A stretch of DNA of 64,000 nucleotides from Radicibacter daui (GTDB taxonomy: Bacteria > Pseudomonadota > Alphaproteobacteria > Radicibacterales > Radicibacteraceae), in NCBI GenBank assembly GCA_030657355.1, contig CP131056.1, positions 1,818,501 through 1,882,500 on the forward strand, written 5' to 3'. This document shows positions 1 through 48,051 of this stretch, piece by piece (the first letter of the stretch is position 1; each line of letters opens with the position of its first letter). A program made the position numbers and the translations under genes. The notes below the pieces were generated by a model that saw only the letters and a program-made list of their open reading frames with translations, made no database searches and had not been told where the DNA came from.

Positions 1-936
1 GTCCCGGCAGGTCTGGCGATCGCAGGTGAGCGCCTTGCGGATGGCGGCGGAAAGGTCGAGGTCGAGCCCGCCCACCGGGGCATCGCCCAGCACGTCGGCC
101 GGGCCGGGTACCGGGAAGGCGGCGACCGGCGTGCCACAGGCCAGTGCTTCCAGCGAGACGAGGCCGAAAGTGTCGGTCAGGCTGGGAAAGACGAAGACAT
201 CGGCAGCGGCAAAGTGGCGGGCCAGGTCCTCACCGCTCTTGTAGCCGAGGAACTTCACCTCCGGGTAACGCTGCTTCAGCTCCTCGGCCATCGGGCCGTC
301 CCCCACCACCACCTTGGTCCCCGGCACATCGGTCTTGAGGAAGGCCTCGATGTTCTTTTCCACCGCCACGCGCCCGACATAGAGCTGGATGGGCCCGGGA
401 AAATCCATGACCGGCGCTTCGCCCGCGAAGGGGTGGAAGAGGCTGGTATCGACGCCACGGCTCCACAGCCGCAGGCGCTCGAAGCCATGGTCGGAAAGCT
501 CGCTGCGCAGCGAACGGGTGGCGACCATGGTGCCGACGGCGGCGTTGTGGAAGCGCCGCATGGCGGCATAGCTCCAGGCCAGCGGCACGTGGAAACGCGG
601 GCGGATATATTCGGGAAAACGCGTGTGATAGGCGGTGGTGAAGGGCAGCTTGTGGCGCCGGCAATAGGCCCGTGCCGACCAGCCGAGCGGGCCCTCGGTG
701 GCAATATGGATCGCATCGGGGCGGAAGCGGCGGATGGTGCGGGCAATGCGCCGGCGCGGTAGCACCGCAAGGCGGATTTCCGGATAGGTCGGGCAGGGGA
801 AGGTGCGGAACGCCTCGGGCGTCAGAAACTCCACCTCGTCGCCCATCGCGCGCAGCTGGTGGGCGACGGTGTCATTGGTGCGCACCACACCGTTGACCTG
901 CGGGTACCAGGCATCCGAGACGATCAGGATACGCAT
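1..936 (-). CDS. Glycosyltransferase family 4, Agt-like glycolipid synthase (partial, 3' end off window)
   Basis: GT-B fold glycosyltransferase cut by the left edge of the window. The visible protein begins MRILIVSDAWYPQVNGVV and carries YVGRVAVEKNIEAFL, then FPSLTDTFGLVSLEALACGTP, the C-terminal GT4 donor-binding region with its EALACGTP element. In several alphaproteobacteria a GT4 enzyme of this kind (Agt) glycosylates the diacylglycerol released by PlcP, making phosphorus-free membrane lipids. The gene lies 26 bases downstream of the plcP-like gene on the same strand, so both probably share a transcript. An alternative in-frame ATG lies at 948, but MRILIVSD is the usual family start. The GT4 call is secure. 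The glycolipid substrate is inferred from the neighbour only; GT4 enzymes acting on phosphatidylinositol or polysaccharide look similar. Confidence 0.85.
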   Translation of the reverse strand, partial: MRILIVSDAWYPQVNGVVRTNDTVAHQLRAMGDEVEFLTPEAFRTFPCPTYPEIRLAVLPRRRIARTIRRFRPDAIHIATEGPLGWSARAYCRRHKLPFTTAYHTRFPEYIRPRFHVPLAWSYAAMRRFHNAAVGTMVATRSLRSELSDHGFERLRLWSRGVDTSLFHPFAGEAPVMDFPGPIQLYVGRVAVEKNIEAFLKTDVPGTKVVVGDGPMAEELKQRYPEVKFLGYKSGEDLARHFAAADVFVFPSLTDTFGLVSLEALACGTPVAAFPVPGPADVLGDAPVGGLDLDLSAAIRKALTCDRQTCRD

Positions 937-19700: not shown

Positions 19701-19854
19701 CCACCGTGATATTGACCGTTGGAGTGATGATGGGCGGAAAATAGGAAACGGGCAGGCGGTAGAAACCATAAAGACCGGCTATCGTCAGGACGATAAACAG
19801 CAGGACAGAAGGCAGCGGGCGCCGGATGGCCCAGGCGGAGATGTTGAAGCTCAT
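16789..19854 (-). CDS. RND efflux transporter permease (AcrB/MdtB superfamily)
   Basis: A 1021-residue HAE1-type RND pump. It starts MSFNISAWAIRRPLPSVLLF, with TM1, then the porter domain with PPIITPTVNITVEQTGARPAELETEVTRPVEDA. The central membrane bundle has LNILSLLAITLVTGILVDDSIVEIENI, where the paired aspartates form the proton relay. A second porter half and TM8-12 follow. It exports drugs, dyes or metabolites using the proton gradient. The start overlaps the adaptor stop by one base. No outer-membrane channel gene is nearby, so it probably uses a shared TolC-type partner. Confidence 0.95.
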   Translation of the reverse strand: MSFNISAWAIRRPLPSVLLFIVLTIAGLYGFYRLPVSYFPPIITPTVNITVEQTGARPAELETEVTRPVEDAISSLPAIKSLESTIDQGRSVTKVELELGMVTPDRAIADVRDQMAKIRSSLPDTIDEPVIERVEEEPQAVVTYALAAPDMTRTGLSWFVDDVVARKLQGLPGVGRVERVGGADREIQVALDAARLQSLALTADDVNRRLLQTQLRVSGGRSSLGGREQALTTQGAALTVQDLADARLALSGDSSVRLGDIATVSDTGAEARAFAALDGDDVVGFSVYRSQGASEVAVADAVATVVTGLAHDNPGIRFSLAEDNVSYTKGNYASALHTLLEGAVLSVIVVFLFLRDWRATVVAGIALPLSIIPTFFALDFIGFSLNILSLLAITLVTGILVDDSIVEIENIVRHRNMGKSAFRAALDASDEIGLAVIAISATIIAVFVPVGTMSGVIGLYFREFGLTVAIAVFFSLLVARLITPVLAAWFMSGKEQAHRPAGRLMLAYENMLRLGLRWRWLTVSLALGLFVFAMAGLLSLPTAFLPDEDQGRLMLSVELPPGASLDETRATTGAITAIALWQPGVSTVFTRAGANANGRKDVRFATVLVNLAHKSQRSLSSRQIEAGIERQIARLPDARLTFLNNRGGRDISFAVMGTDGEAVQHAAGQILDEMSADPDFISPVAGNTAMRPELKMEIRSDKAALLGITPEAIARALRVSTVGELDSQLPNFLEGSRQIPIRVLIGQQDRDRLTTLQLLPIPSPGGGPAIPLSAVADIYFDEAVSSIERLDRERRVEIGANMGGALTSGQGLERVYQLASVRNLPAGVHIQATGDSDNEGDVFSSFIVAMGSGLMFVLVVLILLFGSFLTPWTILASLPLSVGGVTAALLLSGSAISLPVVIGILMLMGIVTKNAIMLLDFALLREAEGLSRTDAIIEACLQRIRPIIMTTLAMVAGMLPSAFGIGDGGEFRAPMAIAVIGGLLASTVLSLIVIPALHLIVANGGDRIARGFRLLVRPAEI

Positions 19855-21092
19855 CAAAACGCACCCTTCACCGTGTTCAGCGAGATGGAGCGCGACGCTT
19901 CGCCTTCGGGAAGGGCGTCGGCCAGAACCGGCTTAATCCGGGCATTTTCCTTGAGAAAACTTCCGGCCTTGAGGACCACCAACTCGCCCACGGCAAGGCC
20001 GGCGGCAATTTCGGTCATACCGTCCTGTTGAAGGCCGACCGAAATGCGGCGGATGGAGACGACGCCATCCCTGACAATCTGGACGCTGTGGATGCCGCCG
20101 GCGCTATTGACCGCGGTTCCTGGCAGGACGATGCCGGTGTGCCTGTCTGCCTGAATGTTGCTGCGGGCAAACATGCCGGGCACCAGGTCAAACCCTGCGG
20201 GCAGGGCGATATGCACGGTGCCGCTCCGTGTCGCGGGGTCGAGCCGGGCATCCTTGAGCCGTACGCTGCCGCCAATCGCCGTTTCTTCTCCCAGAGGCGC
20301 GACAGTGGCGGACATCCCTTCGCGGATCCGTACGAAGAGGGTTTCCGGGACACTGGCGACAAATTCGATGTCGCCGCCGGCCGCCAGCACGAAGAGAGGC
20401 GCCCCTGAAGCCGAGGTCGTGAGGCCGACACGGGCGTTGCGAACCAGTACCCTGCCGGCACCGGGCGCCCGCACGGTGCTGCGCTCGATGATCAGTTCGA
20501 TCTCCTGCCGCTCCTGGAGGATCAGCTTTTCGTCCGCCTGCGCCAGTGCCAGCGACTGGCGGGCCAGCTCAAGTTCGGCGATGGCCCTTGTCTGCGCGCC
20601 TTGATGCTCCTCAAGCATCTGGGTGGCGAGGGCGCCTTTCTGGTTGAGCGCCTGGCTGCGCGCCAGCCGTTTGCGGGCCTCCGTCGCGGTTGCCCCGGCG
20701 GCGTCGACCTTGCTGGCTTCAACGGCGATGGCTGCCTTGGCCCTGAGCAGGCTGACGGTATTCTTGTCGAGCTGCATCCGGGCGTCGGCCATGTCCAGCC
20801 GGACCAGCGGCTCGCCCTGTGCAACTGTCTGGCCGACCTCCACCAGCACTTCCTGGATCTCGCGGCCTGCCACATAGGGGTGGACTTCGATTTCTTCCCG
20901 GGCGGCGAGCGAGCCGATGACGGGTATTTTTTCAAGCAGGGTCGCCTTTTGCGCGGTAACGACGCTGACAGCCATCTCCTCCTGCGCCCGGGCCGGGGAG
21001 AGGCCGGACACCCAGAATATCGCGCCGCACAGCGCCATGCCGGCGAGGCGCTGCCGCCAAAAAGCTGTTTGCCGTGCCGTTGTGGCTTTCAT
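19854..21092 (-). CDS. RND efflux periplasmic adaptor subunit (MFP)
   Basis: A 412-residue membrane fusion protein starting MKATTARQTAFWRQRLAGMAL, with a signal peptide ending near SPARAQEE. The lipoyl/barrel-sandwich hybrid half begins EEIEVHPYVAGREIQEVLVEVGQTVAQGEPLVRLD. A helical hairpin follows (QLDKNTVSLLRAKAAIAVEASKVD...), then the beta-barrel and a membrane-proximal domain with GMFARSNIQADRHTG. It links the RND pump to an outer-membrane channel. It is the first gene of the two-gene operon. A small dyad (CGCTA-CGA-TAGCG, 21142-21154) lies 50 bases upstream and could be an operator. Confidence 0.93.
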   Translation of the reverse strand: MKATTARQTAFWRQRLAGMALCGAIFWVSGLSPARAQEEMAVSVVTAQKATLLEKIPVIGSLAAREEIEVHPYVAGREIQEVLVEVGQTVAQGEPLVRLDMADARMQLDKNTVSLLRAKAAIAVEASKVDAAGATATEARKRLARSQALNQKGALATQMLEEHQGAQTRAIAELELARQSLALAQADEKLILQERQEIELIIERSTVRAPGAGRVLVRNARVGLTTSASGAPLFVLAAGGDIEFVASVPETLFVRIREGMSATVAPLGEETAIGGSVRLKDARLDPATRSGTVHIALPAGFDLVPGMFARSNIQADRHTGIVLPGTAVNSAGGIHSVQIVRDGVVSIRRISVGLQQDGMTEIAAGLAVGELVVLKAGSFLKENARIKPVLADALPEGEASRSISLNTVKGAF

Positions 21093-21290
21093 CAACCGAC
21101 CCTTCCCTTGCCATGGCCTTTGCGGCCGTGGAGCATTCCGGCGCTACGATAGCGATCCGGGCCGGGCGGGATGTTGCGTCCTGTTAAGTTATGTTTCGGC
21201 CCGCGCCGCTTCCCGGTTGGCCGCGCGGGCGCTGGCTGGCCCGGCCGCATCCTTGCCGGTTCCGAAGGGAGCGGATAAGCTCTCCTTTGT

Positions 21291-21362
21291 GCTGCGTGAC
21301 TGGCGGGTCGGGATGGGAAACCATCGGGGAGCGCAGCGCTGTTCTTGCCGTCCGCCTGGGCC
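21291..21362 (+). promoter_or_regulatory. ZTP (pfl) riboswitch aptamer
   Basis: The sequence matches the pfl/ZTP aptamer closely. P1 forms between GCTGCG (21291-21296) and CGCAGC (21332-21337). The conserved GTGACTGGCG core lies at about 21296-21305. P2 is GATGG-GAAA-CCATC (21312-21325), followed directly by GGGGAGC. The second conserved element CCGCCTGGGC lies at 21352-21361. These are the strongly conserved segments of the class that senses ZMP/ZTP, signals of 10-formyl-tetrahydrofolate shortage. It lies directly upstream of the LysE-type exporter gene in the correct orientation. The call is by eye and not tested by covariance search, but the match to both conserved blocks is very good. Confidence 0.88.
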
Positions 21363-21387
21363 AAACCCTTTTTGAGAACGGGGGCCC
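21358..21387 (+). promoter_or_regulatory. Putative expression platform of the ZTP riboswitch
   Basis: GGGCC (21358-21362), the 3' end of the aptamer, can pair with GGCCC (21383-21387), and CCC (21366-21368) with GGG (21380-21382). This hairpin would bury the G-rich ribosome-binding site just before the ATG at 21389. Ligand binding would hold the 5' arm in the aptamer and free the site, suggesting a translational ON switch. A run of five T at 21369-21373 lies in the loop, so a terminator mechanism is less likely. Confidence 0.55.
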
Positions 21388-21388
21388 C

Positions 21389-21985
21389 ATGGATGCGCTT
21401 TTTCTCTTTATCCTCACCTCTCTTGCCCTGACCGGAAGCCCCGGTCCGAACACGCTGAGCCTTGCCGCGCTGAGCGCGGCTTTCGGCCGGGGGCGGGTGG
21501 TGCCTTACATGGCCGGCCTCAATCTCGGCATGGTGGCCGTGGTGGCGCTGGTTGGCTCCGGCTTCTGGGCGGTGCTGCTGTCCTGGCCCGGCGTTGCGCC
21601 GGTAGTGACGATTGCCGCGAGTGCCTATCTTCTCTTTCTGGCCTTCAAGATCGCCACCGCGCCGCCGTTGGCTGCGCGAATGGCGGAGGCGGCTGCCGTG
21701 CCGCCCTGGTATGCCGGCGCGGCTTTGTCGCTCAGCAATCCCAAGGCCTATGTCGCCGTGGCGGCGGTGTTTTCGCGCTATTTGCTGGTGCCGGGAGGCG
21801 GGCTTGCCGACCAACTCGCCAAGGGCGGGCTGCTGCTGGCGATCATCGTGTTCGTCAATATTCTCTGGCTGGTGGCCGGATCCCTGCTGGCCCGCGCGGT
21901 GACGAGGCCCGAAGTCGGCCGGGCGGTGAATATCGTCTTTGCGGCGCTGCTGGTGCTTTCAGTGGCCTTCGCGGCGCTGCTTTGA
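21389..21985 (+). CDS. LysE/RhtB family amino acid exporter
   Basis: A 198-residue inner-membrane translocator. The start MDALFLFILTSLALTGSPGPNTLSLAALSAAFGRGRV has the family motif SPGPN in TM1. About six hydrophobic segments follow, with a NPKAYVAVAAVFSRY motif (the family's NPK element). Relatives export amino acids such as lysine, homoserine, threonine or other small metabolites. It sits directly behind a ZTP riboswitch, implying a link to one-carbon or purine stress. The open frame extends upstream through the riboswitch, but the ATG at 21389 fits the family start. The substrate is not predictable from sequence. Confidence 0.92.
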   Translation: MDALFLFILTSLALTGSPGPNTLSLAALSAAFGRGRVVPYMAGLNLGMVAVVALVGSGFWAVLLSWPGVAPVVTIAASAYLLFLAFKIATAPPLAARMAEAAAVPPWYAGAALSLSNPKAYVAVAAVFSRYLLVPGGGLADQLAKGGLLLAIIVFVNILWLVAGSLLARAVTRPEVGRAVNIVFAALLVLSVAFAALL

Positions 21986-45735: not shown

Positions 45736-47124
45736 TCAGCTCCCTCCGCCAGCCAGGGCCAGCAGCACGCCCGCGCCGGCCGATCCCAGCAGGGTGGTGA
45801 GCATGCCGAGCCGGAAGCGCAGCAGGGCCACCATGGCGGCAACGGAAAGCAACACGGCCTGCCAGTTCACGGAAGGCAGCACGGGATATTGCAGGCCCAT
45901 GGAGAAAGCCTGCCCCAGCTCACCGAAGAGGAAATGCAGGGCAAACCACAGTGCCAGATTGGCGATGACGCCCACCACCGCCGCCGTGATGGCGGCAAGC
46001 GCCGCTGTGGCGACCTTGTTTTCCCGCAGGGCTTCGACATAGGGCCCACCCAGAAAGACCCAGAGAAAACAGGGGGCGAAGGTGACCCAGAGCGTGAGCA
46101 GCGCGCCGAGCGTGCCGGCGAGTGTCGGGTCCAGCCCGCCGGGCGAGCGGAAAGCGGCAAGAAAGCCGACAAATTGCAGCACGAGAATGAGCGGACCGGG
46201 GGTGGTTTCGGCAAGGCCAAGTCCGTCGACCATTTCGCCGGGGGTAAGCCAGCCATAGGAGTTGACCGCCGCCTGCGCCACATAAGCCAGCACGGCATAG
46301 GCGCCGCCGAAGGTGACGACCGCCATGATGGAAAAGAAAAGGGCGATCTGGGTCCACACCCCGGCAATCCCGCCGAGACGCCAGAGCAAGGCGACCGGCC
46401 CCAGCCAGGCGGGCAGCCAGAACAGCAGCGCTCGCCCCGCGCGCCCGGGGGAAGGGCGGGCATGCGCCAGTTCCCCGCGGGCAAACATCTCGTCAACGAT
46501 GCCGGCCGGTTGCTCCGGGCCGGCAGGCTTGCCGGCGGACGGGGCCGGGCTGAAGAACGGTATGGCAAGCCTGTGCCCCGCCCAGCCGAGGAGGCCGGCG
46601 GCCAGCACGATGGCCGGGAAGGGCGTGTGGAAGACATAGATGGCGACGAATGCGGCGATGGCGAGGGCATAGGAAACGCGGCTTTTAAGGGCGCGTTTGC
46701 CGATGCGCAGCATGGCCTCCACCACCAGCGCCAGCACGGCGGCCTTGATGCCGAAGAAGAGGGCGCCGATGAGCCAAAGGCCGTGGAAGTGGGCATAGAC
46801 GATGCTGAAGCCCAGCATCACCAGCGCGCCGGGCAGGATGAAGAGCAGCCCGGCCACAAGCCCGCCGGCCGTGCGGTGCATCAGCCAGCCCATATAGGTT
46901 GCAAGCTGCTGGGCTTCCGGCCCCGGTAGCAGCATGCAGTAGCTGAGGGCATGCAGGAACCTTTCCTCCCCCACCCAGCGCCGGGTTTCGACCAGTTCCT
47001 TGTGCATGAGGGCGATCTGCCCGGCGGGGCCGCCGAAGCTCATGAGCCCGATCTTCAGCCAGACGCGGGTTGCCTCGCGCAGGGTTGGAGCCCGCCTTGC
47101 GGCGGCGGTTTGCGGCTGGTCCAT
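45736..47124 (-). CDS. chrA: Chromate transporter ChrA
   Basis: A 462-residue CHR-family transporter with two homologous CHR domains. The first begins RVWLKIGLMSFGGPAGQIALMHKELVETRRWVGEERFLHALSYCMLLPGPEAQQLATYMGWL. The second has MAVVTFGGAYAVLAYVAQAAVNSYGWLTPGEMVDGLGLAETTPGPLILVLQFVGFLAAF. The GGPAGQI and TTPGPL motifs are diagnostic. It expels chromate across the inner membrane. Its start lies 5 bases after the chrB-like stop, so both are co-transcribed. Confidence 0.96.
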   Translation of the reverse strand: MDQPQTAAARRAPTLREATRVWLKIGLMSFGGPAGQIALMHKELVETRRWVGEERFLHALSYCMLLPGPEAQQLATYMGWLMHRTAGGLVAGLLFILPGALVMLGFSIVYAHFHGLWLIGALFFGIKAAVLALVVEAMLRIGKRALKSRVSYALAIAAFVAIYVFHTPFPAIVLAAGLLGWAGHRLAIPFFSPAPSAGKPAGPEQPAGIVDEMFARGELAHARPSPGRAGRALLFWLPAWLGPVALLWRLGGIAGVWTQIALFFSIMAVVTFGGAYAVLAYVAQAAVNSYGWLTPGEMVDGLGLAETTPGPLILVLQFVGFLAAFRSPGGLDPTLAGTLGALLTLWVTFAPCFLWVFLGGPYVEALRENKVATAALAAITAAVVGVIANLALWFALHFLFGELGQAFSMGLQYPVLPSVNWQAVLLSVAAMVALLRFRLGMLTTLLGSAGAGVLLALAGGGS

Positions 47125-47129
47125 GGCGC

Positions 47130-47948
47130 TTACTCCGGCCTCAGGCCAGAGGGCCAGTCATGGGTTTCATCGCTCGCGTCACGGCACCAGCGGTAGAGAG
47201 CATCGTACAGCAGCATGCCGGCATCGAGCTGCTCCAGATCGCTGCGATACATGCGCGACAGGCCGAGCGAGAGAGCGAGGAATCCGGCGGCTTGCGGGGC
47301 CAGATCGAGCCGGGCGGTATCCGCCGCCCGCACGATGGTGGCAAGCCGGGCGAGGGCGGGGGAGGCGAGGCCGAACTCCTCCAGCATGGTATCGAAACTG
47401 CACGCCTCGCCCCGGTGGCTCCAGAACACCCCGTCGATATCGAACGGGGTGGCGCCGAAGCGGTCGGCAACGGCGCTGACCTCGCTGGCGGCGACAAAGA
47501 GGAAGACGGCGCCGGGATCGACGAAGCGCCGGATGAGCCAGGGGCAGGCGATACGGTCGATCTTGGGGCGTGTACGCGTGACCCAGAGCGTGCGGCCCTG
47601 CCCATCGCGCGGCGGAAGGGCGGCGGTGGTCACCAGCAGGCCGGAACTGTCGCGCCAGCTTTCAAAGCCGCCTTGCAGGGATTCCGCCCGTGCACCGGCA
47701 TGCTGGAGCCAGGCGGTGCTGCCCTGGCTCAGTTTCTGGCCACGCTGGCAGACCACGACAACGGCCTTGCCGGCATAGTCCGGGGCCCAGGACGCCGCCG
47801 TGCGGAAATCGCGGCGGATACTGGCCGGCAGCAGGCGGGGATCGGCGGCAAAATCCTCGTCCGTGCGCACATCGATGATGAGCGGCGCGTCGGGAAGCCC
47901 GGTCAGACGGGCAAGCTGGGGGCAGGTAATTTCATTGGGTGACGGCAT
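47130..47948 (-). CDS. chrB: Chromate resistance protein with N-terminal rhodanese and C-terminal ChrB domain
   Basis: A 272-residue fusion. The N-terminal rhodanese (about 1-115) has PLIIDVRTDEDFAADPRLLPASIRRD and active-site cysteine in AVVVVCQRGQKLSQG. The ChrB C-terminal domain (about 130-265) has TRTRPKIDRIACPWLIRRFVDPGAVFLFV, GEACSFDTMLEEFGL and the final DALYRWCRD. The rhodanese cysteine loop CQRGQK is intact, so sulfurtransferase activity is possible. The domain mixture resembles chromate-resistance proteins upstream of ChrA. Whether it is a repressor, like ChrB of Ochrobactrum, or an enzyme is unclear. Confidence 0.9.
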   Translation of the reverse strand: MPSPNEITCPQLARLTGLPDAPLIIDVRTDEDFAADPRLLPASIRRDFRTAASWAPDYAGKAVVVVCQRGQKLSQGSTAWLQHAGARAESLQGGFESWRDSSGLLVTTAALPPRDGQGRTLWVTRTRPKIDRIACPWLIRRFVDPGAVFLFVAASEVSAVADRFGATPFDIDGVFWSHRGEACSFDTMLEEFGLASPALARLATIVRAADTARLDLAPQAAGFLALSLGLSRMYRSDLEQLDAGMLLYDALYRWCRDASDETHDWPSGLRPE

Positions 47949-48006
47949 GATCGTCCCTCCCGCTCTGTCAGGGAGAAAGGACGCGATCTTTGGGCTGCCG
48001 CCTCAC

Positions 48007-48027
48007 GGGGTAATCGCGGATAACCCC
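48007..48027. promoter_or_regulatory. Inverted repeat upstream of chrB
   Basis: A near-perfect 21-base dyad: GGGGT-A-ATC, a GCG centre, then GAT-A-ACCCC, with one A-A mismatch in each half. It lies 59 bases upstream of the chrB ATG. It may be the site of a chromate-responsive regulator, possibly the ChrB protein itself, or a leader hairpin. Confidence 0.45.
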
Positions 48028-48051
48028 TTGGAGGGGACGATATGCCGAAAG

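Follow-up and report, generated by a model that had tools for sequence, protein, structure and literature searches.

A ZMP/ZTP riboswitch in front of a LysE-family exporter gene of Radicibacter daui, a predicted translational ON-switch

RhtB is an exporter of the LysE family, and the locus reported here is a ZMP/ZTP (pfl) riboswitch, hereafter ZTP riboswitch, that directly precedes another gene of this family in the alphaproteobacterium Radicibacter daui. It lies in a 64,000-nucleotide stretch of contig CP131056.1 (positions 1,818,501 to 1,882,500), which as a whole is called the window and to which coordinates refer. A ZTP aptamer before a LysE/RhtB gene is already known as an ON-switch from Pectobacterium carotovorum PC1, where a reporter made of the 83-bp ZTP riboswitch and the first 17 nucleotides of the rhtB coding sequence, for which Kim et al. 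2015 is cited, is induced by trimethoprim, while the aptamer mutant M4 is not (mSphere 2023, PMC10117056). The window shares with that system a ZTP aptamer directly before a LysE-family gene; the P. carotovorum leader is a trimethoprim-responsive translational ON-switch, whereas for the window leader such a switch is predicted. The aptamer-exporter reading of the initial annotation stands insofar as the ZTP aptamer is genuine and a LysE gene follows it directly, but the association was already in use in the rhtB leader, and the window is a further case of an arrangement already known. Leaders of glyA, purH, and folD carry the same RF01750 aptamer, and in them, too, the GGGC strand often pairs downstream; these genes make or use 10-formyl-tetrahydrofolate, while the window gene encodes an exporter. 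In the alphaproteobacterium “Candidatus Pelagibacter ubique”, an RNA element associated with rhtB likewise lies beside a LysE-type gene (rhtB is there called a LysE type translocator), but it consists of one bulged hairpin instead of a ZTP aptamer and proved unrelated to the window leader (PMC2704228).

Searched with cmscan against Rfam 15, the whole window yielded one ZTP riboswitch, a plus-strand match to RF01750 (64.0 bits, E 4.5e-08; gathering score, 39 bits) that spans the full model (1-86), and a whole-genome search found no second ZTP aptamer in the 5.06 Mb genome. The initial annotation had placed the aptamer at 21291-21362, which is the core of this match, and the covariance search that it proposed bears it out with a significant score. 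Its two conserved blocks, its P1 helix, and its GAAA-capped P2 (AUGG-GAAA-CCAU) are all found in the cmscan alignment, where the ACUGGCG and CGCCUGGGC blocks and the P1, P2, and P3 helices are present. For comparison, genomes were surveyed in overlapping sets (386 of the class, 397 of the phylum, and 397 of the order that includes Chelatococcus), and removal of identical sequences left 101 distinct ZTP hits from Pseudomonadota (L numbers are our locus handles). The fifth pair of the pseudoknot is A-U in 61 of them, C-G in 14 (the GACG variant counted), and G-C in 5, including the window; in 6 of the C-G aptamers GGCG/CGCC has become GACG/CGUC, with compensation on both sides. This co-variation is the pattern expected from selection for the pseudoknot. 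The GACG/CGUC variant occurs in L015, L016, L054, L106, L113, and L115, five of which precede LysE genes of the clade B described below.

The gene that the initial annotation had called a LysE-type exporter begins 20 nucleotides after the aptamer and matches PF01810 with 41.4 bits (cut-off, 25.6) over residues 16-190 of 198, which confirms the family; the genome holds 13 PF01810 matches. The nearest NCBIfam models are EamB (cysteine/O-acetylserine) and RhtB (homoserine), the best reaching 48.5 bits where its cut-off lies at 193. Scores for EamB, RhtB, RhtC, and LeuE all fall far below the equivalog cut-offs, and the substrate is therefore not assignable from them. No solved structure related by sequence to the exporter and no relatives on plasmids were found. 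Although the exporter frame has no stop codon as far back as an ATG at 21191 and runs through the aptamer, its orthologues start at the Met equivalent to 21389, mostly behind a recognizable Shine-Dalgarno sequence, so that the aptamer is leader and not coding sequence. The upstream gene (19854-21095) is on the opposite strand, and the exporter is therefore transcribed from a start of its own.

Scanning genomes with the exporter protein revealed orthologues behind ZTP aptamers in Chelatococcus caeni (73% identity) and Chelativorans alearense (61%); in both, the aptamer lies about 20 nucleotides before the LysE start and is the sole ZTP site of the genome. A third, in genome G910, has 64% identity. 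The set compared contained no other genome of the window genome's order. Together with the window protein these exporters form clade A, and all four leaders share the compensatory pseudoknot pair. The ZTP sites L078, L114, and L116 are not exporter-linked; they lie elsewhere in genomes that have an aptamer-free LysE orthologue, and their downstream genes cluster with folD.

Folding predictions favour a translational ON-switch without proving it. In the ligand-free fold, the GGGCC-AAA-CCC strand at 21358-21368, formed by the 3' strand of P3 and the aptamer tail, is predicted to pair with GGGGGCCC ahead of the AUG. The GGGC-downstream pairing probability is 1.00 in the window leader, against a mean of 0.56 for shuffles of the linker, 1 of 20 of which reaches 1.00; it is likewise 1.00 in every one of the four clade A leaders, a value attained by 1 of 80 linker shuffles. 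In a holo-like fold, the unpaired probability of the Shine-Dalgarno core would rise from 0.01 to 0.23 and that of the AUG from 0.14 to 0.77. Pairing of the aptamer tail with the ribosome-binding site, as the initial annotation had suggested, is therefore possible by folding, which likewise predicts that P3 is linked to the expression platform through its 3' strand. For most clade B leaders, the equivalent strand is predicted to pair over the start codon region, and their shuffles, in which the start codon region had been kept, nearly match the real leaders.

Several observations weigh against this interpretation. The holo-like fold was obtained by enforcing P1, P2, and P3 with the pseudoknot strands set aside and tertiary energy ignored, and a simpler mask that removes the masking strand leaves the Shine-Dalgarno region closed (0.28 to 0.30). 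The GGAGGCCCC initiation region also precedes the riboswitch-free orthologues L134 and L136 and is nearly identical in L133 and L137; thus, the complementarity was not necessarily selected for switching, and part of it predates or ignores the switch. Six orthologues with 65 to 70% identity, from the order of Chelatococcus, lack a ZTP aptamer, which makes the riboswitch-exporter association real but patchy. A search for a sigma-70-type promoter gave no match.

On balance, we consider it highly probable that the ZTP riboswitch is a translational ON-switch of the LysE-family exporter. The aptamer, the gene, their conserved arrangement, and the predicted alternative pairing come from this analysis, while the ligand and the ON direction are those that the riboswitch family suggests. 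When 10-formyl-tetrahydrofolate runs short, PurH would stall and ZMP/ZTP would build up; ZMP binding would then lock P3 and the pseudoknot, withdraw GGGC (21358-21361) from the initiation region, and expose the Shine-Dalgarno sequence and the AUG, so that exporter would be made. Without ligand, GGGCC-AAA-CCC would pair with GGGGGCCC and translation would stay low. The aptamer itself shows only that exporter expression should follow ZMP/ZTP. As to what is exported, our guess is that the protein most likely disposes of an amino acid or derivative of the serine, threonine, homoserine, or homocysteine type, relieving the cell of a compound that would accumulate when one-carbon metabolism fails. 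The features of the locus are collected in Table 1.

Table 1. Features of the riboswitch-exporter locus (window coordinates)
Feature	Position	Strand	Basis or remark
ZMP/ZTP (pfl) riboswitch aptamer, RF01750	21286-21368	+	cmscan 64.0 bits, full length
P1 helix	21289-21297/21331-21339	+	cmscan structure line
Inner pairs of P1 region	21300-21301/21327-21328	+	cmscan structure line
Pseudoknot 5' strand GGCGG	21302-21306	+	pairs with 21352-21356
P2, GAAA loop	21313-21316/21321-21324	+	cmscan structure line
P3 hairpin, GCC 21347-21349 / GGC 21359-21361, pseudoknot strand in loop	21347-21361	+	cmscan structure
Pseudoknot 3' strand CCGCC, in P3 loop	21352-21356	+	co-variation, 101 aptamers
Predicted masking strand GGGCC-AAA-CCC (P3 3' strand and tail)	21358-21368	+	complementary to Shine-Dalgarno region
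GGGGGCCCC: Shine-Dalgarno-like GGGGG, then CCCC; predicted partner of masking strand	21380-21388	+	folding
LysE-family (RhtB-like) exporter gene, 198 amino acids	21389-21985	+	PF01810 E 1.4e-10

ZTP-linked exporters fall into two distant groups in a quick tree, in which long-branch placement is unsure, and the two also separate by their NCBIfam scores. Clade B consists of L015, L016, L054, L092, L113, L115, and L131; the window's genome also carries a clade B paralogue, L122, without a ZTP aptamer. While the window protein is in clade A, P. carotovorum RhtB probably belongs to clade B, as judged not from Pectobacterium sequence but from the f197 genomes, a group that looks like Enterobacteriaceae and in which ZTP sites are confined to genomes of genus g402, which carry clade B proteins.

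Proteins encoded downstream of the 101 aptamers were grouped by clustering, and one representative per group was checked in Pfam where noted. The commonest neighbors are glyA (46 of 101) and purH (18 of 101), exceeding the LysE genes, which follow 10 well-formed aptamers; without the window, L033, and L034, a biased sample in that the latter two were found via the exporter, LysE genes account for 7 of 98. An additional LysE case, L117 (third clade, 40.5-bit hit), is doubtful and was left out of the count as its UGGGC block is missing, and the 44.6-bit hit L097 has a broken core. The folD gene follows 6 of the 101 aptamers and a FolB gene 2; the gene behind L084, a fragment without a Pfam match, looks FolC-like by eye. 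A DJ-1/PfpI-family gene lies behind 10 aptamers (L002, L008, L013, L019, L038, L043, L049, L085, L094, and L107; PF01965 match for representative L002), and its role in folate stress is not obvious. Behind three aptamers (L035, L106, and L112) is a gene for a small PTP-like protein, which in L035 weakly matches the phosphatase-like domain PTP-NADK (PF22741). Genes for an EamA-type transporter (L067) and for a serine/threonine-dehydratase-like pyridoxal phosphate enzyme (L079, with the pseudoknot GGCGG/CCGCC as in the window) follow one aptamer each, and both fit disposal of amino acids of the kind proposed above.

Two other regulatory RNAs were noted in this genome. A fluoride riboswitch (RF01734, 46.8 bits) is located at 580-666 (-) of L124, and a chrB-a RNA (RF03078, 59 bits) at 47946-48032 (-) of the window, directly before a ChrB-like gene (47130-47948, -) that is followed by a ChrA-like chromate transporter gene (45736-47124, -). 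This is an ordinary chromate-resistance arrangement, with gene names assigned by eye.

Riboswitch-controlled exporter genes often handle the ligand itself, and a sensor of the ZMP/ZTP class could accordingly be read as sensing the pumped substance, with the exporter expelling a ZMP-derived compound (e.g., AICA riboside) or another purine intermediate. The nearest described members of the LysE family move amino acids, though, and ZTP aptamers also precede glyA, purH, folD, and other genes, where ZMP signals stress rather than just serving as the substrate, so that we regard export of a ZMP derivative as quite unlikely. Somewhat less improbable, but still unlikely, is that the aptamer acts mainly through transcription (by termination or via Rho) instead of masking the ribosome-binding site. 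A passage of a 2010 paper (PMC2864571) speaks for such control; between the aptamer and the AUG, however, we found no hairpin followed by a T run that would resemble a terminator, the linker is only 20 nucleotides long, and folding predicts a masked Shine-Dalgarno region.

That the aptamer is a relic which has lost control of the exporter is very improbable. The existence of riboswitch-free orthologues, the lack of another ZTP site in the window's genome, and the patchiness of linked LysE genes would agree with decay, but a 64-bit match with all core blocks kept would not, nor would retention of the compensatory pseudoknot pair in all four clade A leaders while their exporters have diverged to 61 to 73% identity to that of the window. 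The window leader is a genuine ZTP riboswitch that probably works, and the gene behind it encodes a LysE-family exporter.

With this locus, a well-formed member is added to a little-noticed exporter branch of the ZTP regulon, a branch that spans two distant LysE clades. It is tempting to assume that folate-stress ZTP signalling has an export or disposal arm recruited at least two times (LysE clade A, clade B, and perhaps the EamA transporter and the serine/threonine dehydratase), draining one particular amino acid that accumulates without 10-formyl-tetrahydrofolate and being, in some genomes including that of the window, the only ZTP-riboswitch target; we put this forward tentatively, as possible rather than probable. 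Because no other target of a ZTP riboswitch was found in the window's genome, the exporter offers a clean case for what cells expel under folate limitation.
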